Positions 2,005 through 22,064 of a DNA stretch of 22,064 bases are shown here, piece after piece; position 1 is the stretch's first letter, and the number at the start of each line of letters is the position of its first letter. The DNA is taken from positions 1 to 22,064 of the IMG/VR virus record IMGVR_UViG_3300028388_003023; one strand, 5' to 3'. The stretch is from a virus. A model generated the notes under the pieces. That model made no database searches, was not told where the DNA came from, and was given only the letters and a program-made list of their open reading frames with translations. The position numbers and the translations under genes are program-made.

Positions 2005-3213
2005 ATGATTGATGAAAAGCCGTTTCGAGCGTTAGTTGACAAGCTTAAAGACGAAGGTAAGTATAGAGTCTTTAATGATATTGTAAGGGATCGAGGTAAG
2101 TTTCCTCGAGCAACTTGGTACAGTAAGTACTCTCCTAAAACAATAGTCAATTGGTGCTCGAACGACTATCTTTGTATGGGTCAAAACCAATATGTTATAG
2201 ATGCCATGCAAACGGCTTTAGATAAGACAGGGAGTGGTAGTGGAGGTACTCGCAACATCGGCGGTACCTCTCATTACCATGTTACTCTCGAAAAAGAACT
2301 TGCTAAACTCCATATTAAAAATTCTGCACTGCTGTACACTTCAGCTTATGTCGCTAATGAATGGACTCTCATCTCACTAGCTAAAATTATACCTAACATT
2401 TGTTTCGTATCAGATAGCAAGAATCACGCATCTATGATCATGGGTATTAAACACAGTGGCGCTAAGAAAATCGTTTTCGAACACAACAACATTGAAGATT
2501 TAGAAGCTTCATTGATTCAAGCTCGCGAGGAATGTTATGTTCCTTGTATTGTATTCGAAAGTGTTTATAGCATGGATGGAGATGTAGCACCCATTGAAAA
2601 AATTTGTGACCTGGCTGATAAGTACGGCGCTATTACATATATAGACGAGGTACATGCCGTAGGATTATATGGAAACACTGGAGCAGGATATTGTGAAAAA
2701 CTTGGATTTGCAGTCTCAAACAGAATCGACATCATCAATGGCACGTTGGGTAAAGCGTATGGTTGCCAAGGAGGGTATGTCGCTGGCGATCACGTTGTCA
2801 TTGATGCAATTCGCAGCGTGGCTTCTGGTTTTATATTCACTACTAGCCTCAGCCCAGTAATGTGTGCTGGTGCTATAGCATCAATACGTTATTTAAGAGA
2901 TCACAACGAATTACGAGAGCAGCATCAAGAACGAGCTGCGACTCTGAAGCAAATGTTAATCGAAAACGACATCGAAGTCTTCGAAGAAGCTTGCACTCAC
3001 ATCATTCCGGTAATGGTTCGAGATGCTAAACGTTGTAAAGAAATAAGTGATAGGTTACTGAATGTTCACGGAATATATATCCAGCCAATTAATTATCCAA
3101 CAGTCGATGTGGGTACTGAACGGCTACGAATTACACCAACTCCACTACACACTAATGGTATGATGGAAAACTTAGTAGAAGCACTAAAGGAATCATTCGA
3201 TTATGTTAAGTAG
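2005..3213 (+). CDS. hemA: 5-aminolevulinate synthase (ALAS, Shemin pathway)
   Basis: A 402-residue, full-length fold-type I PLP enzyme that condenses glycine and succinyl-CoA to 5-aminolevulinate, the first tetrapyrrole precursor. Visible motifs are [12 protein letters not shown] (48-59), [12 protein letters not shown] (81-92), SDSKNHASM (136-144), [13 protein letters not shown] (184-196), [11 protein letters not shown] (213-223), the PLP lysine K250 in [18 protein letters not shown] (274-282) and [12 protein letters not shown] near the end. The GTRNI..T block and the terminal QPINYPTV...ERLRITPTP separate ALAS from the related KBL, BioF and SPT enzymes. Best likeness is to alphaproteobacterial ALAS. 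The start has AGGTAAG overlapping the nrdB stop, and the 3' end overlaps AOX by 11 bases, so the two are probably translated together. Aquatic phage ALAS genes (valaS) have been reported before. Confidence 0.93.
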
Positions 3214-5497: not shown

Positions 5498-5791
5498 ATG
5501 GACGCGTGTTATGATGCAGAAACTTACTTGTGTCCAGATTTACTGGGATTCCAAGAGAAAGTCGTATTCGTTAACGAATCGAGCTTAGTAAGAAATTGTA
5601 AAGACTTTGAAGCCGAAGCATGCGCAGTAATAAATTTTAAAATGAAAACGTGCACAATATACTTGAACGGTGTACGAGGGCCAACTGCTTCTGACTTAAC
5701 ACATGAAAGAAACCATTGTAGAGGTTGGAATCATGAAGATATTAATACCGGTGAATACGAAAAAGAACATTGGTTCCCGATAAGGAGATAA
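5498..5791 (+). CDS. Small protein with metzincin-type zinc motif
   Basis: A 97-residue protein with HERNHCRGWNH at 69-79, which fits HExxHxxGxxH: H69, H73 and H79 as possible zinc ligands and E70 as general base. The rest is short, with five cysteines (4, 12, 34, 42, 52) before the motif, and no clear signal peptide. Cysteine richness would suit an exported, disulfide-bonded protein, but no export signal is seen. It lies 42 bases after the clpP-like gene in the same frame, with no in-frame start between. GAGAG precedes the ATG. Protease activity is inferred from the motif only. Confidence 0.6.
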   Translation: MDACYDAETYLCPDLLGFQEKVVFVNESSLVRNCKDFEAEACAVINFKMKTCTIYLNGVRGPTASDLTHERNHCRGWNHEDINTGEYEKEHWFPIRR

Positions 5792-9079: not shown

Positions 9080-9532
9080 ATGTTCAAACCTTTGCTTACT
9101 CCATATCAGATGCTAGAACTGGGTGTCTTCGATGGAGATTACTTTAGCGGGGATTTCAGTGACTTTGATTTTTCCCCCACAGTGTCTACTTCAAATCTCT
9201 TTATGGAAGGCGCTTCACAGCCAAAAGAGGTATGGCTAGAAAAGGGCTGGATCACTGAAGAAGACCCATACGGTTGGTTCCAATGGTATACTCGTTACTA
9301 TCACGGACGTCGCATTCCAGAGCTCGATAATTGGCAGATTGGCCGATACAATTCTTTTACTGCTCGGCATGGAGCTCAGGTACGCAAGAACGGCAACGGC
9401 GACTTGTCTAAGCGAATGAAGCAACGACAAGCTCTCCTTCACTGGGGTGCCGATCCTATTCCAGATCTTGATATGTTGCCTGAAGAAAAGATCAATTTTC
9501 TATTCGTCAAAAAACAGTTGACAGATACATAA
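9080..9532 (+). CDS. Conserved phage protein (150 residues), unknown
   Basis: The product starts MFKPLLTPYQMLELGVFDGDYF, with a conserved core EDPYGWFQWYTRYYHGRRIPELDNWQIGRYNSFTARHGAQVRKN and RMKQRQALLHWGADPIP. I recognise this layout (tyrosine- and tryptophan-rich core, then RQALL.W..DP) from phage and some bacterial proteins with no known function. The basic residues in the core would suit nucleic acid binding. It is soluble. It is first in a unit with its own promoter, and its 3' end contains the next promoter. Confidence 0.8.
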   Translation: MFKPLLTPYQMLELGVFDGDYFSGDFSDFDFSPTVSTSNLFMEGASQPKEVWLEKGWITEEDPYGWFQWYTRYYHGRRIPELDNWQIGRYNSFTARHGAQVRKNGNGDLSKRMKQRQALLHWGADPIPDLDMLPEEKINFLFVKKQLTDT

Positions 9533-9546
9533 TACTATGTTATAAT
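9518..9546 (+). promoter_or_regulatory. Sigma70-type early promoter within the end of the preceding gene
   Basis: AAAACAG followed by TTGACA (9518-9523), 17 bases, TATAAT (9541-9546). It overlaps the final codons of the gene at 9080 and drives the one at 9598. Confidence 0.88.
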
Positions 9547-9597
9547 GATTCATGTAATGAACATTCGTCCATCAAATGTAATATAGATGATACAATT

Positions 9598-10112: not shown

Positions 10113-10141
10113 TCGTTGACAAAACTTTTTTCAAAAAACAG

Positions 10142-10170
10142 TTGACATTTGCTTTGAAGCCGTATATAAT
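10142..10170 (+). promoter_or_regulatory. Sigma70-type early promoter
   Basis: TTGACA (10142-10147), 17 bases, TATAAT (10165-10170). A second TTGACA 26 bases upstream (10116-10121) has no matched -10. It drives the gene at 10203. Confidence 0.9.
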
Positions 10171-10202
10171 GGTTCCATCAAATGAAAGCAGGAATGAAAA
10201 AT

Positions 10203-11749: not shown

Positions 11750-11757
11750 TATAAATA
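11750..11757 (+). promoter_or_regulatory. T4-type late promoter (TATAAATA)
   Basis: An exact octamer in the gap after the hydrolase gene. By T4 geometry transcription would start near 11763, inside the 5' arm of the hairpin at 11756-11783. It drives the resolvase and, through ATGA coupling, sdhB. Confidence 0.8.
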
Positions 11758-11783
11758 CCTCTATTACGTGATTAATAGAGGTA
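11756..11783 (+). promoter_or_regulatory. RBS-sequestering hairpin for the resolvase gene
   Basis: A perfect 11-bp stem (11756-11766 with 11773-11783) around a CGTGAT loop. The Shine-Dalgarno AGAGG (11777-11781) for ATG 11788 is in the 3' arm, so it would be hidden in transcripts from upstream promoters. A late transcript starting near 11763 would keep only about four base pairs and expose the site. The same design is known for T4 gene 49 (endonuclease VII) and lysozyme. Confidence 0.75.
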
Positions 11784-11787
11784 TATC

Positions 11788-12342
11788 ATGGTCATTGCAG
11801 GTGTGGACTATAGCTTGACTAGTCCTGCGATTTGTGTTCATGCTGGAAAAGAGTGGAGCTACGACAATTGTAGGTTTTATTATCTAGTAAACAAAGAAAA
11901 GCATTTAGAAGTAGAGGATGAGAGATATGTTCCAACACTATATCCCAACTATTCAGAAGACGTTGATCGATTTCACTTATTGTCTGAATGGACAGTGGGA
12001 AATATACTTAGTGATTCCGCTGATCTTGTTGCTCTAGAAGGATACGCTTTCGGAGCAGTGGGTCGAGTTTTTCAGATCGCCGAGAACGGCGGCTTGCTTA
12101 AATATAAGCTGTGGGAACAAGAAATTCCGGTTTCAAACTATCCTCCTACGATGATTAAGAAGTTTGCTACCGGTAAAGGTAATGCAAATAAAGAAATGAT
12201 GATAGAATCATTTGAGAGTGAGACTGGAGTAGACATTCGAGAGAAATGCGGAGTAACAAACAAACAATGGAATCCTATTAGTGATATCGTTGATGCTTAT
12301 TATATTGCTAAGTATGGTTTTTATCAGGAATTGGAAAAATGA
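11788..12342 (+). CDS. RuvC-like Holliday junction resolvase
   Basis: A 184-residue RNase H-fold nuclease. Acidic residues fit the RuvC set: D7 in AGVDYSLTSPAI, E84 in VALEGYAFG, and D166/D169 in SDIVDAYYIAKYG. The segment RVFQIAENGGLLKYKLWE and the PP.MIKKFATGKGNANKEMM region are typical of phage members. It would cut branched DNA before packaging, the job of T4 gp49, here by an unrelated fold. Its mRNA hairpin and late promoter suggest late expression. The stop overlaps sdhB (ATGA). Confidence 0.88.
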   Translation: MVIAGVDYSLTSPAICVHAGKEWSYDNCRFYYLVNKEKHLEVEDERYVPTLYPNYSEDVDRFHLLSEWTVGNILSDSADLVALEGYAFGAVGRVFQIAENGGLLKYKLWEQEIPVSNYPPTMIKKFATGKGNANKEMMIESFESETGVDIREKCGVTNKQWNPISDIVDAYYIAKYGFYQELEK

Positions 12343-14476: not shown

Positions 14477-15432
14477 GTTGTATTTACAAAGGTGAAGTAA
14501 TTGAGACTGAACTATCTAAGAACTCGTGGGGTGGTACAGAAATGATGCGTCAAAGACTTATCGAGAACGTCGACAAGTCTCTTTTGGAAAATGTGGCTAT
14601 TCACTTATCTCGTCCTCGTGAGATTTATGAAGATGTAGCAAACATTCTTTGGTGCCACGACCTCGCAGAAGACCCTGAAAATAAGATTCTATTAGACGGC
14701 GGTTGGGACAAGTTCGATTACTTTGTATTTGTTTCTGCGTGGCAACGAGATCAGTATATCATGAGATTTGGTATTCCCTATTCGAGATGTACTGTAATTC
14801 ATAACGCAGTAGAGAAACAATACGCGCCTCAACAAAAAGACTTGGAAACAATTCGATTTGTTTATCATACCACTCCACATCGAGGCCTCGAACTTCTCGT
14901 TCCAATCTTCGAAGCACTGGCGAAAGAGTTTGACAACATTCATCTTGACGTTTATTCGTCTTTCGGAATCTACGGATGGGAAGAACGAGACGAAACTTAT
15001 TCTGGCTTGTTCAAGCGAATTGAAGCGCATCCCAACATGACTTATCATGGTGCAGTTTCAAACAATGAAGTACTCGATGCTCTTCAAAACGCTCATGTAT
15101 TTTTGTATCCAAACATTTGGAAAGAAACATCTTGTATTGCGTTGATCGAAGCTATTAAGAGCCAAATGTTGTGTATTCATCCGAATTACGGTGCTTTGCC
15201 TGAGACCGGATGCAACGCAACGATCATGTATGACTTTAACGAAGATGCTCAAGTCCACGCCAACTACGCTTTTGCTGTCACGAAGCAAGTACTTCAAACT
15301 ATGAGAGCAGACCCTAACTACTTCCACGGGTTTACTTACTCTGATCGTTTTAATCTTGCTCGAAACAACATCCAGTCCTTCACGACCGTTTGGACTGCTA
15401 CACTATCGAGATTTGCGCAACAAAACAGTTGA
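14473..15432 (+). CDS. GT4-type glycosyltransferase
   Basis: A 319-residue protein with GT-B features: SKNSWGGTEMMRQRL near the N-terminus, FVFVSAWQRDQYIMRFG (84-100), TVIHNAVE (107-114), RFVYHTTPHRGLELLV (127-142) and the nucleotide-sugar pocket YPNIWKETSCIALIEAIKSQMLCI (213-236) followed by GALPET. It transfers a sugar from an activated donor; the acceptor is not known. It is coupled to the previous glycosyltransferase (ATGA), so the two may act in series. The promoter for the next unit lies in its last codons. Confidence 0.87.
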   Translation: MSCIYKGEVIETELSKNSWGGTEMMRQRLIENVDKSLLENVAIHLSRPREIYEDVANILWCHDLAEDPENKILLDGGWDKFDYFVFVSAWQRDQYIMRFGIPYSRCTVIHNAVEKQYAPQQKDLETIRFVYHTTPHRGLELLVPIFEALAKEFDNIHLDVYSSFGIYGWEERDETYSGLFKRIEAHPNMTYHGAVSNNEVLDALQNAHVFLYPNIWKETSCIALIEAIKSQMLCIHPNYGALPETGCNATIMYDFNEDAQVHANYAFAVTKQVLQTMRADPNYFHGFTYSDRFNLARNNIQSFTTVWTATLSRFAQQNS

Positions 15433-15457
15433 CATTTTCAGTGAAGCGGGTTATAAT
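15429..15457 (+). promoter_or_regulatory. Sigma70-type early promoter with palindrome over the -10
   Basis: TTGACA (15429-15434), 17 bases, TATAAT (15452-15457). The -10 lies in the odd palindrome GGTTATAATATAACC (15449-15463), which is perfect except for its central base. It drives the exonuclease gene at 15487. Confidence 0.9.
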
Positions 15458-15486
15458 ATAACCTCAATTTCACTATGGACTAAACT

Positions 15487-16344
15487 ATGGCTATTCTAGT
15501 TGACTACAACCAAGTGATGCTGGCGAGTTTATTCGCTGGCATCGGTAATCACACTGACATGGATGTAGATGAAAATCTTCTGCGTCACATGTTTCTTAAC
15601 TCAATTCGCTTTAATCGTAAAAAGTTTCACGATGAGTACGGCGAGATTGTACTATGCGTCGATAACAAAGATGTCTGGCGGCGAGACTACTTCCCGTACT
15701 ACAAAGCAAACCGCAAAAAGTCTCGAGATGAGTCTGAGCTCGACTGGAACAAGCTGTTCGAGTCGATTCATCGTATTCGTGCTGAGATCGAAGAGTTCTT
15801 CCCGTATAAGGTGATCAGCGTCGATCGATGCGAGGCTGATGACATTATCGCTACCGTTGTTCATGAGTATGGTACTGAACTTAACATGGGCTCTGAAAAG
15901 TTTTTGATTCTATCTGGTGATAAAGACTTTATTCAGCTTCATGGATATGCTAATGTTGATCAGTATAATCCGGTCATGAAAAAGTGGATTCGAAATGATA
16001 ATCCAGATAAATACCTGCAGGAACATGTTCTGAAGGGTGATGTTGGTGACGGAGTCCCTAACATCCTTTCTGCCGATAACTGCCTTGCTGTTGGTGAAAG
16101 GCAGCGTCCTATGACTAAGAAGCGCATGTCAACTTTCTTCGATACTTCGAACATGGATGAAGAAACTCGTCTTCGCTATAATCGAAACAAGAAGATGATT
16201 GACTTATCTGAGATTCCTGAAGAATACAAAGAGCGCATTCTTGAACAATACAACAAAGAAAAAGGAATTGGACGGGAACACCTGTTCAACTTCTTCATTA
16301 AGAAAAAATTGAAGAATCTCATTACAGACATACAGGATTTTTAA
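15487..16344 (+). CDS. T4 RNase H-like 5'-3' exonuclease (FEN family)
   Basis: A 285-residue FEN/5'-nuclease-family protein. Acidic metal-binding sets: D6 in ILVDYNQ, LCVDNKDVWRRDYFPYYKANR (56-76), RCEADDIIAT (113-122), LILSGDKDFIQL and VLKGDVGDGVPNI. The RRDYFPYYKANR and GD.GDGVPN blocks match T4 RNase H (305 residues). It removes RNA primers and lagging-strand 5' ends in T4-type replication. It is first in a unit with its own promoter; the next gene starts three bases after its stop. Confidence 0.9.
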   Translation: MAILVDYNQVMLASLFAGIGNHTDMDVDENLLRHMFLNSIRFNRKKFHDEYGEIVLCVDNKDVWRRDYFPYYKANRKKSRDESELDWNKLFESIHRIRAEIEEFFPYKVISVDRCEADDIIATVVHEYGTELNMGSEKFLILSGDKDFIQLHGYANVDQYNPVMKKWIRNDNPDKYLQEHVLKGDVGDGVPNILSADNCLAVGERQRPMTKKRMSTFFDTSNMDEETRLRYNRNKKMIDLSEIPEEYKERILEQYNKEKGIGREHLFNFFIKKKLKNLITDIQDF

Positions 16345-16346
16345 TA

Positions 16347-16787
16347 ATGGCTATCAAACTAGCAATTTCTGAAGTTCTATCAGAAACAGCTAAATTCAAA
16401 TCGAAACTCGAGAAGGTCGAGTTCCTACGACAAAATGATTCAGTTCCTCTGAGAACGATTTTAAGACTCATCTATGACGAGACTATCGAGTTTCTCTTAC
16501 CAGACTCTGCTCCACCTTGGAAACGAAATAAGCTTGTCGACGCACATACGATGTTGTATCGTGAAGCGCGGCGATTGCGTATTTTCGTGAAAGGTGGAGG
16601 TTACGACGACATTAAACAAGTAAAGCGAGAAGCACTGTTCATTAGTCTTTTAGAAGATATTATGAATGAAGATGCAGAGCTACTAGCTAATAATATGTTA
16701 TCTCACAAACCAGTGAAAGGTGTTACTAGGAAAACAGTAGAAGAAGCGTTTCCTGACCTGTTCACTTCTCCTATCAAGCTCGGATAA
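16347..16787 (+). CDS. Conserved phage protein (146 residues), DUF6433-like
   Basis: The product contains EKVEFLRQNDSVPLRTILRLIYDETIEFLLPDSAPPWKRN, then MLYREARRLRIFVKGG and REALFISLLEDIMNEDAELL, ending VTRKTVEEAFPDLF. I recognise this as a conserved T4-like phage family of unknown function that sits near replication genes. No catalytic motif is seen; it is mostly helical. It follows the exonuclease gene. Confidence 0.82.
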   Translation: MAIKLAISEVLSETAKFKSKLEKVEFLRQNDSVPLRTILRLIYDETIEFLLPDSAPPWKRNKLVDAHTMLYREARRLRIFVKGGGYDDIKQVKREALFISLLEDIMNEDAELLANNMLSHKPVKGVTRKTVEEAFPDLFTSPIKLG

Positions 16788-16804
16788 AGGAAATAGTTTT
16801 TCAA

Positions 16805-16975
16805 ATGGCTAAGCGTTATAAGGATATTCGTGACTCTTATCTTGATGATTGGGAAGACATCCGTAGGGAAGATCGTCAACGCGAAAAGCAAAAAGGCAAG
16901 CGTCGTAGAAATAACCGCAAAGGAAAGCATAACGAGAAGTTTCAGAACTTTAAGGATTTTTCTGACGACTATTAA
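16805..16975 (+). CDS. Small basic phage protein (56 residues)
   Basis: The product is MAKRYKDIRDSYLDDWEDIR followed by a very basic stretch (REKQKGKRRRNNRKGKHNEKF) and an aromatic acidic end. AAAGGAAA at 16787-16794 precedes the start. It ends just before a promoter. It is likely real from position, RBS and composition; a nucleic-acid-binding role is inferred from charge only. Confidence 0.7.
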   Translation: MAKRYKDIRDSYLDDWEDIRREDRQREKQKGKRRRNNRKGKHNEKFQNFKDFSDDY

Positions 16976-16982
16976 AAAACAG

Positions 16983-17011
16983 TTGACATTTCATCAAAAC
17001 GTTGTTATAAT
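16983..17011 (+). promoter_or_regulatory. Sigma70-type early promoter
   Basis: AAAAAACAG then TTGACA (16983-16988), 17 bases, TATAAT (17006-17011). It drives the HAD gene at 17040. Confidence 0.9.
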
Positions 17012-17039
17012 GGTAGCGTAAAATGAAATGGGAATGATT

Positions 17040-17615
17040 ATGAAAGAAAAAGTGATTTTAGTTGATTGTGACGGTGTTCTGTTGGACTGGGTGTATTCCT
17101 TCGGACAATGGATGAAGCGTCACGGATATGTTGAACAATGTAATGATACCTACAGTATCGATCAGCGCTACGGTATCGACCGCGCTGAAGGCAAGAAATT
17201 GGTTCGTATGTTTAACGAGTCTGCGTGGATTCGTAAGCTACCTCCGTATCTTGATGCCATTAAGTATGTGAAGAAACTTCATTCAGATCATGGATATATC
17301 TTCCACGCTATCACGTCTTTAAGTAACGACGACTACAGCCAACACTTACGTACTAAGAACTTAATTGAACTGTTCGGACCTACTGTTTTCGAACGCTTCA
17401 CCTATCTTGACACTGGCGCTGATAAGGACGAAGCCCTCAAGCTATACGAGGGAACAAATTGCATCTGGGTTGAGGATAAACCTGAAAACGCAGATGAAGG
17501 TCTTAAGAATGGCTTAGATAGCATTCTGATGCACCACAGCCACAACACAGATTATGTAGGTGAAGCTAAACGAGTTTACAACTGGAAAGAAATTTATGAA
17601 TACGTGGTTGGTTGA
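17040..17615 (+). CDS. HAD-superfamily phosphatase (deoxyribonucleotidase-like)
   Basis: A 191-residue protein with the HAD nucleophile motif VDCDGVLLDW (8-17; D9 nucleophile, D11 general acid), Thr/Ser of motif II in AITSLS, and the acidic motif IV region CIWVEDKPENAD. The layout resembles 5'(3')-deoxyribonucleotidases, which would tune dNMP pools alongside the RNR and kinase genes. I chose ATG 17040 because it follows the GGGAATGA leader and is the third in-frame ATG after the promoter; 17028 would add MGMI. Confidence 0.78.
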   Translation: MKEKVILVDCDGVLLDWVYSFGQWMKRHGYVEQCNDTYSIDQRYGIDRAEGKKLVRMFNESAWIRKLPPYLDAIKYVKKLHSDHGYIFHAITSLSNDDYSQHLRTKNLIELFGPTVFERFTYLDTGADKDEALKLYEGTNCIWVEDKPENADEGLKNGLDSILMHHSHNTDYVGEAKRVYNWKEIYEYVVG

Positions 17616-17617
17616 AT

Positions 17618-17625
17618 TATAAATA
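17618..17625 (+). promoter_or_regulatory. T4-type late promoter (TATAAATA)
   Basis: An exact octamer in the gap before the gene at 17652. A short repeat GTTAT/ATAAC (17628-17632 with 17645-17649) follows, spanning the weak GGG ribosome binding site, a reduced form of the layout at 11750. Confidence 0.6.
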
Positions 17626-17651
17626 ATGTTATACAGGATATGGGATAACTG

Positions 17652-17894
17652 ATGCCAATCTATTCTTTTAGAGATAAAAACACACAAGAAACTTTCGACA
17701 GAGTCATGTCTTATGACTCTAAGCTTGAATTCCTCGAAGAAAATCCTCACTTAGAATCTATTATAACTTCAGCACCGAGTATAGGTGATTCGGTGCGTCT
17801 TGGTTTGCGTAAGCCAGACCAAGGATTTCGTGATGTCCTTAAAAACATTAAGTCTAACAAGGCTTATTCAAACAACAAAATCAACGATTTTTAA
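17652..17894 (+). CDS. Conserved phage protein (80 residues), FmdB-type N-terminus
   Basis: The product is MPIYSFRDKNTQETFDRVMSYDSKLEFLEENPHLESIITSAPSIGDSVRLGLRKPDQGFRDVLKNIKSNKAYSNNKINDF. The MP.Y.F...TQE start resembles FmdB zinc-ribbon proteins, but the cysteines are absent; the KPDQGFRDVLK.IK block near the C-terminus is shared by T4-like phage proteins of unknown function. It is preceded by a late promoter, unlike most small genes here. Confidence 0.72.
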   Translation: MPIYSFRDKNTQETFDRVMSYDSKLEFLEENPHLESIITSAPSIGDSVRLGLRKPDQGFRDVLKNIKSNKAYSNNKINDF

Positions 17895-17916
17895 AAGCAG
17901 TAAAATCCTTGATTTT
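17877..17916 (+). repeat. Tandem pair of short hairpins between two genes
   Basis: AAAATC-N3-GATTTT occurs at 17877-17891 and again at 17902-17916, each a 6-bp stem with a 3-base loop. The first covers the last codons of the preceding gene; the second ends 3 bases before AAGGAGG of phoH. They may be RNA-stability or weak terminator elements. Confidence 0.4.
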
Positions 17917-17932
17917 GATAAGGAGGCTTTAT

Positions 17933-18694
17933 ATGTCGAGACAACGTCGCTTAACTGCAAAAGAGAAGCGTAGACAAGAGCGTGAGAAGAACGTAACTTT
18001 AAATTCCAAGTTTAGCATGCGACACATTAAACCTATCACACAAACACAGGAGGATATGTTTTACGAATATCAAAGCGGAAAAAATATTGCTGCAATAGGT
18101 ACAGCAGGAACGGGTAAAACTATGTGTGCGTTATATCTCGCACTGCAAGATGTTTTATCAAACGATGGATACGAACAAGTAGTAATCGTTCGTTCTGCAG
18201 TGCAAACGAGAGAACAAGGCTTTATGCCAGGATCTCAAGCACAAAAAGAAGCAGTCTATTCTATCCCTTATTCAGATATTACGTGTGATTTGTTTGGTCG
18301 TGGAGATGCTTGGGATATTCTCAAACAAAAACGCCAAGTTAAGTTTATGACATCATCTTTTGTAAGAGGATTGACGTTTGACAATTCGATCATTGTAGTA
18401 GATGAGTGCCAGAGTATGACCTATCATGAACTTGATAGTATCATCACTCGAGTCGGCGAGTCTTCGAAGATTATCTTCTGTGGAGATACTCGACAAGACG
18501 ACCTAGCAGGTTCTCGAAATCGTAACGACGTTTCAGGCCTTGCTTCATTCATCAATGTACTTAAAGGTATTCCTTCATTCGCGCTTATCAACTTCGGAGT
18601 CGAGGACATTGTTCGCTCAGGCCTCGTAAAGGAATATATAATTGCAAAGGAACGATTTGAATCTAAAGGCAGCGTTCGCTCGATAGCGGCATAA
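17933..18694 (+). CDS. phoH: PhoH-like P-loop ATPase
   Basis: A 253-residue protein, with a basic N-terminus (MSRQRRLTAKEKRRQEREKN) and a RecA-like core: Walker A GTAGTGKT (56-63), VRSAVQTREQGFMPG (86-100), Walker B IIVVDECQSM (153-162) and an STR-type motif FCGDTRQDDL. It is widespread in marine phages and linked to RNA or nucleotide metabolism, but its role in infection is not settled. I chose ATG 17933 (AAGGAGG at 17920-17926) over the upstream in-frame ATG 17909. Confidence 0.92.
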   Translation: MSRQRRLTAKEKRRQEREKNVTLNSKFSMRHIKPITQTQEDMFYEYQSGKNIAAIGTAGTGKTMCALYLALQDVLSNDGYEQVVIVRSAVQTREQGFMPGSQAQKEAVYSIPYSDITCDLFGRGDAWDILKQKRQVKFMTSSFVRGLTFDNSIIVVDECQSMTYHELDSIITRVGESSKIIFCGDTRQDDLAGSRNRNDVSGLASFINVLKGIPSFALINFGVEDIVRSGLVKEYIIAKERFESKGSVRSIAA

Positions 18695-18696
18695 AC

Positions 18697-18741
18697 TAAG
18701 GAGGGGGTGGCTGCCCTTCGGGGCAGCTACTCAATTACATT
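18697..18741 (+). promoter_or_regulatory. Shine-Dalgarno, UUCG hairpin and spacer upstream of ATG 18742
   Basis: TAAGGAGG (18697-18704) is a perfect anti-SD complement but lies 37 bases from the ATG. Between them, bases 18705-18732 form a 12-bp stem (two G-U pairs) closed by a C(UUCG)G tetraloop. Folding leaves the 9 bases 18733-18741 between SD and ATG, a normal spacing. T4 genes 25 and 38 are reported to use such helper hairpins. No T-run follows, so it is not a clear terminator. Confidence 0.8.
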
Positions 18742-18936
18742 ATGGCAAAATATGCAGTTAAAGTTCCACTCGGTCATGAAGACGACGACTTGTTATTCGT
18801 TACCGAAGGAGATACTAAATTTAAACTAAGACCCAAAATGTTTGACACCGTGGCACAGGCACAAGAACATGCAGAACTATGGGGTCCTAAGGCTGTCGTT
18901 GTAGAACTTGACGACGATTACGAGATACTACTATGA
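18742..18936 (+). CDS. Small phage protein (64 residues), unknown
   Basis: The product is MAKYAVKVPLGHEDDDLLFVTEGDTKFKLRPKMFDTVAQAQEHAELWGPKAVVVELDDDYEILL, acidic and soluble, mixed beta and helix, of a size common in small phage beta-strand proteins. Translation would depend on the hairpin-looped Shine-Dalgarno. The stop overlaps the next ATG (ATGA). Confidence 0.75.
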   Translation: MAKYAVKVPLGHEDDDLLFVTEGDTKFKLRPKMFDTVAQAQEHAELWGPKAVVVELDDDYEILL

Positions 18937-19178
18937 GTACACAAGAAATTCAAAACTATAAGCTAAACTGGCTTAGCAACAAATGCTTCCGTGTACCTGT
19001 TACATCAAGCGATGGCGAGCATTATCAATGGTTGAAAGAAAATATCGATGAAAGAGTTTGGGAAATGTCTGTTCATCCTAAAACAAAGAATCCTACTTTC
19101 TTTTTCCAGAACGCAACTGACGCAGAAAAATTTAGAGAGCAATTTAGAGGCGAATCACGCACAGTTGACATTGGCTAA
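18933..19178 (+). CDS. Small phage protein (81 residues), unknown
   Basis: The product contains NKCFRVPVTSSDGEHYQWLKENIDERVWEMSVHPKTKNPTFFFQNATDAEKFREQF, aromatic-rich, mixed helix and strand, with no recognised domain. It overlaps the preceding gene by four bases, and the promoter at 19165 lies in its last codons (the final VDIG is read across TTGACA). Confidence 0.7.
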   Translation: MSTQEIQNYKLNWLSNKCFRVPVTSSDGEHYQWLKENIDERVWEMSVHPKTKNPTFFFQNATDAEKFREQFRGESRTVDIG

Positions 19179-19193
19179 TTATTGTGTTATAAT
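19165..19193 (+). promoter_or_regulatory. Sigma70-type early promoter with inverted repeat over the -10
   Basis: TTGACA (19165-19170), 17 bases, TATAAT (19188-19193). A 9-bp inverted repeat (19174-19182 with 19189-19197) overlaps the -10. It drives the exonuclease gene at 19223. Confidence 0.88.
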
Positions 19194-19222
19194 TAGCGCA
19201 TTATTACTAAATAGGTTATATT

Positions 19223-19909
19223 ATGTTTACCCACTTTGATCATGGGATTGATCTACCGACACTTACTCGCAAGACAACAGAATCTGGTCGCCGATACTTC
19301 ACACCTACCGGGGAAGCTTATCCTTCAGTTACTACTGTCCTTGGCATTCTTGGTAAAAAGGAACTAATGGAGTGGCGAAAGCGAGTAGGAGAAGACAAAG
19401 CGAATCAGATTTCGCGTCAAGCGGCCACGCGCGGAACTGCAGTACATAAACTTTGTGAAGACTATCTCGACAACAAAGAAGATTATTCTAAAAAGCACAT
19501 GCCTGCTAACATTCACATGTTTAACACCATGCGCTCAGTGCTAGATGAGAAAATAAATAATATATGGTTCCAAGAAGCTTTTCTCTACAGTGATGAGCTA
19601 CAAACAGCAGGACAGGTTGATTGCATTGCCGAGTTCGAAAACGAATTGTCAGTGATCGACTTTAAAACTTCACGTAGACCGAAAAGCCCTGATAAGATCC
19701 AAAACTACTTTATGCAGGTATCTTTCTATGCTAAAGCATTCGAAGAACGCACAGGCACTCCTATCAAGAAAGGTGTAGTCCTAATAGGAGTTGACGACTC
19801 GGAGCCTCAGATCTTCGTTATCGATACTGAGGAATACATCGAACACTTTAAAGCCGTAAGAGAGGCGTATAGGAATCTTTATGAAAAGGACAAGGTACGT
19901 AATAGCTGA
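19223..19909 (+). CDS. PD-(D/E)XK nuclease (RecB/Cas4-like exonuclease)
   Basis: A 228-residue protein. The catalytic set is H75 in RGTAVHKLCEDYL, E118 in FQEAFLYS, D133 in AGQVDCIAEF and D146-x-K148 in VIDFKTSRRP, the usual order for phage PD-(D/E)XK exonucleases. The N-terminus has YPSVTTVLG, common in this group. It could process DNA ends for recombination or degrade host DNA. It has its own promoter; the next gene overlaps its 3' end by 29 bases. Confidence 0.87.
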   Translation: MFTHFDHGIDLPTLTRKTTESGRRYFTPTGEAYPSVTTVLGILGKKELMEWRKRVGEDKANQISRQAATRGTAVHKLCEDYLDNKEDYSKKHMPANIHMFNTMRSVLDEKINNIWFQEAFLYSDELQTAGQVDCIAEFENELSVIDFKTSRRPKSPDKIQNYFMQVSFYAKAFEERTGTPIKKGVVLIGVDDSEPQIFVIDTEEYIEHFKAVREAYRNLYEKDKVRNS

Positions 19910-20231
19910 TGACGATATGGGAATATTCTTAGGCACATACAACGGTGAAGATTTCGGCGACGAAAATGATAACCGGGTCTACATTTGTTTTGCTTCACAG
20001 AATCCTTTTGGCTTAACGAGTTCATGTTCTTTCAACACAGAGGCTGCGGCCAAGTTTTTCATTAGAAACGCGTTTCCTCCAAGTAAAAGAGAAGGACTTA
20101 AGATATTGCCAGTTGAAACTGATAATGACTATCCGAGCGCTATCGATCTAATCAAGTCAGGCTATGGTGAATTCACTCATGATATGATCGACGGTCTATT
20201 TGACGAACAATCATTAAGTACAATACATTAA
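19881..20231 (+). CDS. Phage protein (116 residues), unknown
   Basis: The product is MKRTRYVIADDDMGIFLGTYNGEDFGDENDN..., mixed strand and helix, with FNTEAAAKFFIRNAFPPSKREGLKILPVE in the middle. It is acidic and soluble. The start ATG 19881 (AGGAA at 19870-19874) lies inside the nuclease gene. No known domain was recognised. Confidence 0.75.
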   Translation: MKRTRYVIADDDMGIFLGTYNGEDFGDENDNRVYICFASQNPFGLTSSCSFNTEAAAKFFIRNAFPPSKREGLKILPVETDNDYPSAIDLIKSGYGEFTHDMIDGLFDEQSLSTIH

Positions 20232-20234
20232 ATT

Positions 20235-20762
20235 ATGGAAAAAACTAAACTAGTTAACGACGCTTTGATGTTAGCGGTAAAAGCTCACGGAGATCAGCGT
20301 CGTAAATATACGGGTGAACCTTATGTTGTTCATCCTGTTCAAGTGTCAGAAATAGTCGAAACAGTAGAACACACGCCAGAAATGGTAGCAGCTGCTCTAC
20401 TGCACGATGTAGTAGAAGATACGAACATAACCCTGCAATATATCGAAGATCAGTTCGGTGCTGTTGTAGCCGAATACGTACATTATTGCACGAACGTATC
20501 TGAGAAGAAAGACGGTAACCGGGCTTTTCGCAAAAAGATGGATGCCGATCACTTTGCTATGGGACCTGCTGAGTCTCAAACTATTAAGATAGCAGATCTG
20601 ATCTCAAATGCTGAGAGCATAGTCCTGCACGATCAAAAATTCTTCCACACAGCGTTCAAGCATGAGAAAAAGTACATGCTAAGCGTTCTCACCAAAGCAG
20701 ACCCTATCCTGCGCGAAGCTGCAGAAAAATACCTCGAAAGCCATTGGCATCAGGCCATATAA
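20235..20762 (+). CDS. SpoT/Mesh1-like HD hydrolase (alarmone hydrolase candidate)
   Basis: A 175-residue HD-superfamily protein. Motifs: AHGDQRRKYTGEPYVVHPVQV (17-37; H33), AALLHDVVEDTNIT (53-66; H57, D58, and E61/D62), FGAVVAEYVHYCTNVSEKK and IKIADLISNA (118-127; D121). The order fits the hydrolase domain of RelA/SpoT and small alarmone hydrolases such as Mesh1, without a synthetase domain. It would remove (p)ppGpp and so relieve the host stringent response; a related NADPH phosphatase role is also possible. It starts three bases after the preceding stop. Confidence 0.82.
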   Translation: MEKTKLVNDALMLAVKAHGDQRRKYTGEPYVVHPVQVSEIVETVEHTPEMVAAALLHDVVEDTNITLQYIEDQFGAVVAEYVHYCTNVSEKKDGNRAFRKKMDADHFAMGPAESQTIKIADLISNAESIVLHDQKFFHTAFKHEKKYMLSVLTKADPILREAAEKYLESHWHQAI

Positions 20763-20827
20763 CTTTTTGATCTAAGGCAACCGGTTCCTTATTCCAAAAT
20801 GATCTAAAAAAATAATCCCTTTCATGG

Positions 20828-20833
20828 TATAAT
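20828..20833 (+). promoter_or_regulatory. Extended -10 promoter (TGGTATAAT)
   Basis: TATAAT at 20828-20833 is preceded by TG at 20825-20826, the extended -10 form, but no TTGACA is found 17 bases upstream (TAAAAA instead). The following leader (CCATCAAATGAAAACAGGAA) nearly matches the one at 10177. The preceding gap (20763-20804) has AAGGCAACCGGTTCCTT, a weak hairpin that may terminate the previous unit. Confidence 0.7.
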
Positions 20834-20864
20834 GGCTCCATCAAATGAAAACAGGAATGAATTT

Positions 20865-21218
20865 ATGAAAGCTCACGTATACTTCCACAACCGCAACGGT
20901 GATGTCAAGCGAGTTGCAGAAGTCACTATTCCTAATGGGTTTGACACTAATGAGGCTCTTGAGTCTGTCTACATGCGGCTTCAGAACATTCGTGGTTCTT
21001 GGTCCTTCGGTCCTTTGTTCGAGGGTCAGGCTGATCTTGAGGGTCAACCTAATTACGATCATTCGGATGCAGTGAAGTTCGTCGGCAAGCATCCTCAGAA
21101 CCTCAAAGGTGAGAAGCTCGGTGAGCGATCCATGATGATTGGTGATCTGATCACTTTGAATGGGAAGACTTACGAGGTTGCTCCCTTTGGATTTGACGAG
21201 TATAAGGAGGCAGTGTAA
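20865..21218 (+). CDS. Conserved phage protein (117 residues), unknown
   Basis: The product begins MKAHVYFHNRNGDVKRVAEVTI and contains NEALESVYMRLQNIRGSWSFG and GERSMMIGDLITLNGKTYEVAPFGFDEY. The last block (S..IGD.I..NG..YEVA..GF) is shared by a common small phage family. I chose ATG 20865 (ACAGGA at 20851-20856), not the in-frame ATG 20832, which lies inside the -10 element. The stop overlaps the next gene (TAATG). Confidence 0.8.
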   Translation: MKAHVYFHNRNGDVKRVAEVTIPNGFDTNEALESVYMRLQNIRGSWSFGPLFEGQADLEGQPNYDHSDAVKFVGKHPQNLKGEKLGERSMMIGDLITLNGKTYEVAPFGFDEYKEAV

Positions 21219-21298
21219 TGAGTCGTAATGTTCTTTTCGTGGCTGGTCTGATCTTAGTGTATATGAGCGCTTTCTATCTGTATGGAGTGATGGTATAA
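21218..21298 (+). CDS. Single-helix membrane microprotein (26 residues)
   Basis: The product is MSRNVLFVAGLILVYMSAFYLYGVMV, one transmembrane helix. AAGGAGG at 21204-21210 is well placed, and TAATG overlaps link it to both neighbours, so it is probably translated. It could be a membrane-active or modulatory peptide, but no family is known to me. Confidence 0.6.
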   Translation: MSRNVLFVAGLILVYMSAFYLYGVMV

Positions 21299-21459
21299 TG
21301 ACTGTGTATGTGCTTGTGTTGAAGGGCTGGACGGACTCGGAAATGATAGGCGTGTTCGCTACCGAAGAGGCTGCTCTAGCTCGCGGTAATGAACTCGAAG
21401 AAAAATGCTCTGAGTATGACATGGATGTTTATGTGTATGAGATGGAGGTTCAGCAATGA
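21298..21459 (+). CDS. Small phage protein (53 residues), unknown
   Basis: The product is MTVYVLVLKGWTDSEMIGVFATEEAALARGNELEEKCSEYDMDVYVYEMEVQQ. The layout (YVL......E.IGVF.TEE.A....) resembles small phage proteins of the type that may carry one strand-helix-strand fold. It is coupled to the microprotein by a TAATG overlap. Confidence 0.68.
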   Translation: MTVYVLVLKGWTDSEMIGVFATEEAALARGNELEEKCSEYDMDVYVYEMEVQQ

Positions 21460-21489
21460 AATTAAATGAAAAAAAAATTGAAAAAACAG

Positions 21490-21518
21490 TTGACATTTGT
21501 TTTGAACTAGATTATAAT
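21490..21518 (+). promoter_or_regulatory. Sigma70-type early promoter
   Basis: AAAAAACAG then TTGACA (21490-21495), 17 bases, TATAAT (21513-21518). It drives the DUF932-type gene. Confidence 0.9.
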
Positions 21519-21555
21519 GGCTCCTGTAAATTAAACTAATTGAGGAAATTTTGTT

Positions 21556-22064
21556 ATGGCACACATGATCGAAGAAATTAACGGCGTTGCTCAGATGGCT
21601 TATCGCGAGTCTGCTGGTCTTCCTTGGCACGGACTGGGTACTCCTGTCTCTGACGACATGACTCCCGAAGAAATGATGAAAGCCGCTGGTCTTGACTGGT
21701 CTGTTCGTCTTCAAGACTCTTTCATCGAACTAAACGGTGAAAAGGTTCCCACTGGCCAGCAAGCGCTGGTTCGAGAAACTGACGGTAAGATTCTTACCAA
21801 CGTCGGTGGCAAATGGAATCCTTGCCAAAACGCTGAAGCTTTTGACTTCTTCACTGATTTCGTCAAAGCAGGCGACATGGTAATGGATACTGCCGGTTCG
21901 TTGAAAGACGGCCAGATGGTTTTCGCTGCAGCTGATGTTCGAGATGGTTTCGAACTCTTCGGTGGTGACGAGGTCAAAGGTTACCTTCTGTTCTCTAACC
22001 CTCACGTCTATGGTCGCTCTATTGATGTTAAGTTCATCATGACTCGAGTGGTTTGTAACAACAC
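21556..22064 (+). CDS. DUF932-type (TIGR03299) phage/plasmid protein, 5' part
   Basis: About 170 residues before the window ends: MAHMIEEINGVAQMAYRESAGLPWHGLGTPVSDDMTPEEMMKAAGLDWSV..., with GKWNPCQNAEAFDFFTDFVKAGDMVMDTAGSLKDGQMVFAAADV and VKGYLLFSNPHVYGRSIDVKFIMTRVVCNN. The WHGLGT start and R..V.NN end block are those of the DUF932 phage/plasmid family of unknown biochemical role, often expressed early. GAGGAAA at 21542-21548 precedes the ATG. The C-terminal part lies beyond the window. Confidence 0.9.
   Translation, partial: MAHMIEEINGVAQMAYRESAGLPWHGLGTPVSDDMTPEEMMKAAGLDWSVRLQDSFIELNGEKVPTGQQALVRETDGKILTNVGGKWNPCQNAEAFDFFTDFVKAGDMVMDTAGSLKDGQMVFAAADVRDGFELFGGDEVKGYLLFSNPHVYGRSIDVKFIMTRVVCNN

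Follow-up and report, generated by a model that had tools for sequence, protein, structure and literature searches.

The junction between the phoH gene and a small downstream gene in a marine T4-like phage (positions 18697-18744) is probably an accommodated (split) ribosome-binding site (RBS) of the type described for T4 genes 25 and 38, which, judging from its sequence and that of related junctions, would be derived from a hairpin at the 3' end of phoH. The window analysed here (22,064 nt) corresponds to the left half of a virus record of 44.6 kb (IMGVR_UViG_3300028388_003023). As listed in Table 1, the phoH stop codon is followed, in order, by a perfect Shine-Dalgarno sequence (SD; TAAGGAGG), a hairpin, a short spacer and the ATG at 18742 that opens a 64-aa gene. 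The SD lies 37 nt from this ATG, or 9 nt if the hairpin is discounted.

Table 1. Features of the phoH junction and its surroundings in the window.
Feature	Position	Strand	Basis
Perfect sigma-70-type promoter (TTGACA-17-TATAAT), upstream of the phoH operon	16983-17011	+	Promoter scan
phoH gene; own SD TAAGGAGG at 17919; stop TAA 18692-18694	17933-18694	+	Pfam, PHROG
SD1, Shine-Dalgarno sequence TAAGGAGG	18697-18704	+	2 nt past phoH stop
Hairpin, 12-bp C(UUCG)G, spanning the SD-to-start gap	18705-18732	+	Fold and relatives
Spacer AATTACATT, 9 nt, hairpin to ATG, without SD or U-tract	18733-18741	+	Sequence
64-aa gene, putatively translated from the bridged SD	18742-18936	+	7 IMG/VR relatives
81-aa gene, overlapping the end of the 64-aa gene	18933-19178	+	ORF, relatives

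The hairpin is composed of a 5' arm (GGGTGGCTGCCC, 18705-18716), the loop TTCG (18717-18720) and a 3' arm (GGGCAGCTACTC, 18721-18732), which form a 12-bp stem with two G-U pairs. A sequence-only reading had placed an SD, a 12-bp hairpin, a 9-nt spacing and an ATG 37 bases away at this site; all of these coordinates proved exact, and the stem does begin directly after the SD, which ends at 18704. The predicted folding energy is -22.8 kcal/mol for the hairpin alone (z -5.9; 0/200 dinucleotide shuffles were equally good) and -24.9 for the segment 18697-18744 (z -5.5), and hardly any base of the SD is paired in this prediction. This is the sole long C(UUCG)G hairpin of the window, the runner-up having 6 bp and an intragenic location. 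A search of the window against Rfam at the gathering score gave no matches. Like an intrinsic terminator, the hairpin is a GC-rich stem-loop placed right after a gene, and U-tracts accompany its counterparts in some relatives; unlike a terminator, it is followed in the window, as in the related loci L008 and L019, by no U-tract. Directly after the stem stands AATTACATT, and a terminator scan of the window did not list the hairpin. For want of a U-tract, the window hairpin was not accepted as an intrinsic terminator.

The SD at 18697 is the best match to the anti-SD found upstream of the listed ORFs of the window, with a duplex energy of about -12 kcal/mol. No SD is present in the 20 nt adjoining the ATG (-1.8), and the energy of the best second SD (SD2) between hairpin and ATG is +2.7. 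Six intergenic plus-strand copies of TAAGGAG/AAGGAGG occur in the window. Five of them (at 295, 5781, 10464, 17919 and 21203) have an ATG 6-8 nt downstream (for 21203 the ATG was taken from the printed sequence, since the ORF extends off the window); the copy at 18697 is the only exception. About one sixth of the window genes have no SD, so the ATG at 18742 might likewise be used without one.

That 18742 is the real start is indicated by the homologs of the 64-aa protein, which align from residue 1: seven IMG/VR relatives share 69-78% identity over residues 1-64, the initial Met included. Searches with this protein revealed no Pfam family and only weak PHROG matches. Neither BLASTN with the junction nor tblastn with the 64-aa protein gave a match in annotated phage records, and hence no cultured relative was found. 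The sequence-only reading had named an unannotated start codon just past 18704 as the observation that would count against it. The only start codon nearer to the SD is GTG 18707, from which the SD could drive a short leader ORF of 40 codons. It lies 2 nt beyond the SD, a spacing too short for initiation, and does not share the reading frame of the 64-aa gene either in the window or in L008, the closest relative, where its frame closes early, after about 20 codons; in L019 the corresponding GTG is absent. GTG 18707 was ruled out as a start by its bad spacing, wrong frame and non-conservation, and a leader ORF is highly improbable as the function of this SD.

Comparison with characterized systems bears out the likeness to the helper hairpins of T4 genes 25 and 38 that the sequence-only reading had proposed (PMC3014915). 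In T4 gene 25 the SD, located 27 nt from the AUG, is brought to 11 nt by an RNA hairpin (Nivinskas 1999; Malys and Nivinskas 2009; reviewed in PMC3014915), and in gene 38 a structure between SD and AUG cuts the spacing from 22 to 5 nt (PMC3014915). For gene 25 the mechanism has been demonstrated with mutants and structure probing, and for gene 38 with mutants (PMC3014915). The window site shares with both a distant SD, a stable hairpin that leaves a functional spacing, no nearer SD, a real start, and a hairpin and geometry that are kept (in two independent relatives). As in gene 25, the junction between two cistrons of a T4-type phage combines a distant SD with a hairpin; the genes concerned are unrelated (26 and 25 in T4, phoH and the 64-aa gene here), the gap is larger (37 reduced to 9 nt), and the 12-bp UUCG stem is flush with the SD. 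The resemblance to gene 38 lies in the shortening of the SD-AUG spacing by an intervening structure, although the gene is again unrelated and the hairpin is a different one. The probing and reporter evidence belongs to gene 25 and the mutational evidence to gene 38, whereas the window site is known from its sequence. In the split RBS of E. coli thrS, the ribosome accommodates a hairpin without unfolding it (PMC3936740). The window junction also has a hairpin inside the ribosome-binding region. The looped-out hairpin of thrS is situated between an upstream single-stranded docking domain and a domain that contains the SD and the AUG; in contrast, the window hairpin sits between SD and AUG. Intergenic CUUCGG hairpins of T4 and other phages, reported by Tuerk (1988) as cited in PMC8948821, are similar in being very stable C(UUCG)G hairpins between phage genes, but the hairpin by itself defines that class, and the window element is defined by the place of its hairpin between SD and AUG. 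The literature search, for which most subscription papers were out of reach, found the T4 and thrS cases and no genome-scale survey.

The genetic surroundings of the junction were also analyzed. The window contains nrdB, phoH (Pfam PhoH, E 1.9e-42; PHROG phrog_170, E 2e-76) and exonuclease genes, and the right side of the record carries ORFs that we take to encode a T4-like tail sheath, tail tube, portal, prohead protease and major capsid protein. The stretch from the hairpin to 18742 holds no promoter, and the one at 16983 is followed by another perfect promoter only at 19165, towards the 3' end of the 81-aa gene; transcripts that cover the 64-aa and 81-aa genes must therefore come from phoH and read through the hairpin. 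In most hairpin-bearing relatives, the gene directly after the hairpin is the 81-aa gene or the exonuclease gene.

Several other elements of the window were noted in the course of this analysis. A promoter block, AAAAAACAGTTGACATTT-N-TATAAT, is present in five plus-strand copies (9506-9563, 10130-10187, 15417-15474, 16971-17028 and 21478-21535) and also at 19165-19193; these blocks are likely phage early promoters, judging by their sequence. Four promoter sites within 15000-22064 fit the sigma-70 consensus at 12/12 positions. A 34-nt direct repeat, TATAATGGYTCCATCAAATGAAARCAGGAATGAA (94%; 10165-10198 and 20828-20861, + strand), covers a promoter -10 region and two ORF starts, and a text resembling it, TTATTCCAAAATGATCTAAAAAA, is found ahead of 20832 and also near 29550 of the record. 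A glutaredoxin-NrdB fusion is encoded at 788-1996 (phrog_22 thioredoxin, phrog_86 NrdB). The adjacent 402-aa ORF (2005-3213, + strand), presumably 5-aminolevulinate synthase-like, is possibly a host-derived metabolic gene. Finally, a 12-bp hairpin (11755-11784, + strand; -14.1 kcal/mol, z -4.0) covers with its 3' arm the SD (AGAGGT) of a 184-aa ORF starting at 11788, and its 5' arm is overlapped by a T4-type late promoter sequence, TATAAATA, at 11750. The region 11750-11800 thus matches the layout of T4 gene e, in which an SD-hiding hairpin is overlapped by a late promoter. By analogy, the SD of the 11788 ORF would be hidden in long early RNAs and exposed in late RNAs begun inside the hairpin.

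To examine the same junction in other phages, 80 phoH loci were fetched and the DNA 3' of the phoH stop was compared. Of 31 representatives, 29 carry a strong hairpin behind phoH (z -1.6 to -6.7) and two, L049 and L073, have none (z above 0), while the stem, loop and flanks vary widely among representatives. Compensatory changes, suggested by the sequence-only reading as a check on the stem, were indeed observed: in the close clade both sides of the stem change at pair 2 (G-C/G-U/A-U) and pair 8 (C-G/U-A), as read by eye with hand-placed stem arms and L013 left out, so that the hairpin is kept despite sequence drift. In the window, L008 and L019-21, the SD stands against the stem, the ATG follows 9, 9 and 10 nt beyond it, respectively, and both a second SD and a U-tract are lacking; the spacer sequence differs in L008 (9 nt) and L019 (10 nt). 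In a table of 32 relatives, an ATG no more than 12 nt from the hairpin is confined to the window, L008 and L019, whose SD1 energies range from -9.6 to -12.6. The bridged geometry is thus shared at this locus by just two distinct relatives (L008 and L019-21). In the phoH tree L019 stands apart from the window and L008, with weak deep support, and the bridged layout may therefore have arisen twice.

Most relatives outside this group have a U-tract and/or a second SD past the hairpin. Junctions that lack SD1 usually carry a second SD behind the hairpin. In L013-L018 there is no good SD ahead of the hairpin, and a U-tract and a good SD are found behind it; L009-12, sister to the window and L008 in the phoH tree, combine a strong SD, a U-tract and a weak second SD, an arrangement that looks like an intermediate. 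U-tracts follow the hairpin in L009-12, L015-18, L029, L038 and L065. The strengths of SD1 and SD2 are anticorrelated (Spearman rho -0.50, nominal p 0.003, 32 relatives, uncorrected for relatedness), and such an exchange across relatives is the outcome that a functional SD1 predicts. The bridging role that the sequence-only reading assigned to the hairpin is upheld by these data; what that reading had missed is that the site is the one occupied in relatives by the terminator-like hairpin at the 3' end of phoH.

This common location raises the question of whether the hairpin is merely the 3' end of the phoH mRNA (a terminator or a barrier to exonucleases), with the SD being a relic or serving some other role and 18742 being used without an SD or by loose reinitiation. 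The U-tracts of many relatives fit such an explanation, as do the several SD-less genes of the window and the SD-like motifs that precede clear U-tract hairpins as well. We consider it unlikely, as the window hairpin lacks a U-tract and does not figure among the terminators called, no promoter separates it from 18742, and SD1 is strong exactly where SD2 is missing and an ATG follows at 9-10 nt. The motifs in question, with the next start at least 20 nt away, occur in L022, L029, L038, L053, L064 and L065, most of which have a U-tract; retention of SD1 in these six falls outside the bridging model.

A different arrangement is seen in L032-37, L069, L079, L082, L083 and L087, in which AAGGAG ahead of the hairpin can pair with CTCCTT behind it. 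This CTCCTT adjoins a second SD (AAGG), which is followed by the ATG, and the pairing is a possible SD/anti-SD/SD switch or coupling device. A MAFFT alignment of these junctions was too gappy for formal pair counts. They and the SD-before-U-tract junctions could represent regulated states, reinitiation aids or intermediates. If the window junction were an RNA switch as well, alternative pairing would expose or hide its SD1, as in the group of L032, L079 and L082. Such a switch is hardly credible here, because no anti-SD partner exists past the hairpin in the window, L008 or L019, and the predicted window fold leaves the SD practically free.

The distribution of the bridged layout was then examined in IMG/VR. 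A first pattern scan required an ATG; stem lengths came out bimodal, and the long-stem matches mostly had a gene opening soon after the hairpin. An unbiased scan, in which no start codon was demanded (AAGGAGG, 0-6 nt, GGGC-UUCG-GCCC), yielded 45 distinct SD plus UUCG-hairpin sites. At 26 of them (24 under a stricter ORF cut), an ATG opening an ORF of 50 aa or more was located about 5-13 nt past the stem. These in-range ATGs had no SD of their own, and starts located farther away often had a strong one. The median SD-ATG spacing, minus the hairpin, was 9 nt; canonical sites of these contigs have a median of 6 nt. When a scrambled purine motif replaced the SD, nine stretches were retrieved, with a start in range at 0 of 6 distinct sites. 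Only 4 of 283 non-seed noncoding tetraloop hairpins in the fetched DNA had a start in range and no SD after the hairpin (three of the four, including L007 and L019 of the phoH-junction family, had an SD before it), suggesting that the layout is rarer away from UUCG stems or that the criteria were too strict. No further bridged sites were found in the remainder of the 44.6-kb record. With a slightly narrower pattern, 84,980 prokaryote genomes gave just seven matches, all of them lacking the bridged layout; five were a single terminator-like Pelagibacter site, 47-48 nt ahead of the next gene.

Clustering of the downstream proteins gave 19 unrelated families for both scans pooled and about 12 for the unbiased scan, the latter figure being our own count from the clustering. 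One of the families is a tail tubular protein, and the upstream genes checked at bridged sites include those of major head and virion structural proteins. In a family of 92-aa HTH proteins, the UUCG loop is swapped for GCAA or CUCG, and some members have no SD1 and carry an SD after the hairpin instead. Seven hairpin-free loci (L406, L409, L413, L423, L424, L427 and L432) have AGTACCCCCACC right ahead of the 92-aa HTH start, a conserved pyrimidine-rich leader without an SD in otherwise different contexts. The repetition of the layout in unrelated phages, with ATGs at SD-like spacing, further argues against a hairpin that only marks the end of phoH. Altogether, the helper-hairpin reading is supported by the lack of a hidden start, the exchange of SD1 and SD2 in relatives and the recurrence in about 12 families.

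Ribosome binding at the window junction, accommodation of the hairpin, any termination activity and the history of the site are inferred from the sequence, the predicted fold, the conserved start and hairpin position, the SD1/SD2 exchange and the recurrence in phages, which were obtained directly. In the proposed mechanism, the 3' end of 16S rRNA would pair with TAAGGAGG just behind the phoH stop, and the 12-bp UUCG hairpin would remain folded, looped out on the 30S platform. The effective SD-AUG spacing would then be 9 nt, not 37, and the 64-aa gene would be initiated at 18742. An unstructured 37-nt spacer would block SD-directed initiation. Since the stability of the hairpin greatly exceeds that of the SD duplex, accommodating it should be easier than unfolding it. 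Ribosomes that have just terminated on phoH may also be passed to the SD, which lies 2 nt beyond the stop. The SD might even act by holding the terminating phoH 30S for reinitiation at 18742 over the hairpin, so that entry would be coupled to phoH translation and not independent. The short distance from stop to SD1, and the stops that overlap or abut the SD in the wider set, agree with such coupling; yet stop-SD overlap is usual in tightly packed phage genes (e.g. at 5781), and coupling is compatible with, not opposed to, a split RBS. As a separate explanation it appears improbable. Regarding its origin, the hairpin of the accommodated RBS appears to be a descendant of the phoH 3'-end (or leaky terminator) hairpin kept by relatives, and it may retain part of that function. 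The same hairpin bears a U-tract in relatives and probably marks the phoH mRNA 3' end there too; the window lineage has no U-tract, and its hairpin lies within the RBS of the next gene.

The presence of the same layout in many unrelated phages suggests that a trick documented for two T4 genes is a common phage design, and on sequence grounds it looks commoner in phages than the literature found indicates. The recurrence in unrelated phages and the absence from cellular genomes go beyond that literature. Gene callers and RBS calculators presume an unstructured 5-10 nt spacer, and the 64-aa gene would be scored as SD-less. Should bridged sites be frequent among phages, many of their starts rated "SD-less" are misjudged, and the tolerance of the 30S subunit for structure between SD and AUG could be tested on the natural series with an SD before or after the hairpin. 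Whether hairpin-bridged RBSs are a widespread, phage-specific form of gene packing seems to us an evenly balanced matter; in such packing, the 3'-end or attenuating hairpin of a highly expressed upstream gene (major capsid, virion structural or phoH), placed in the RBS of the next, would serve both, and lineages would switch between SD-before and SD-after states. The layout suggests that the hairpin could tune the end of the upstream mRNA while the downstream RBS is spared.
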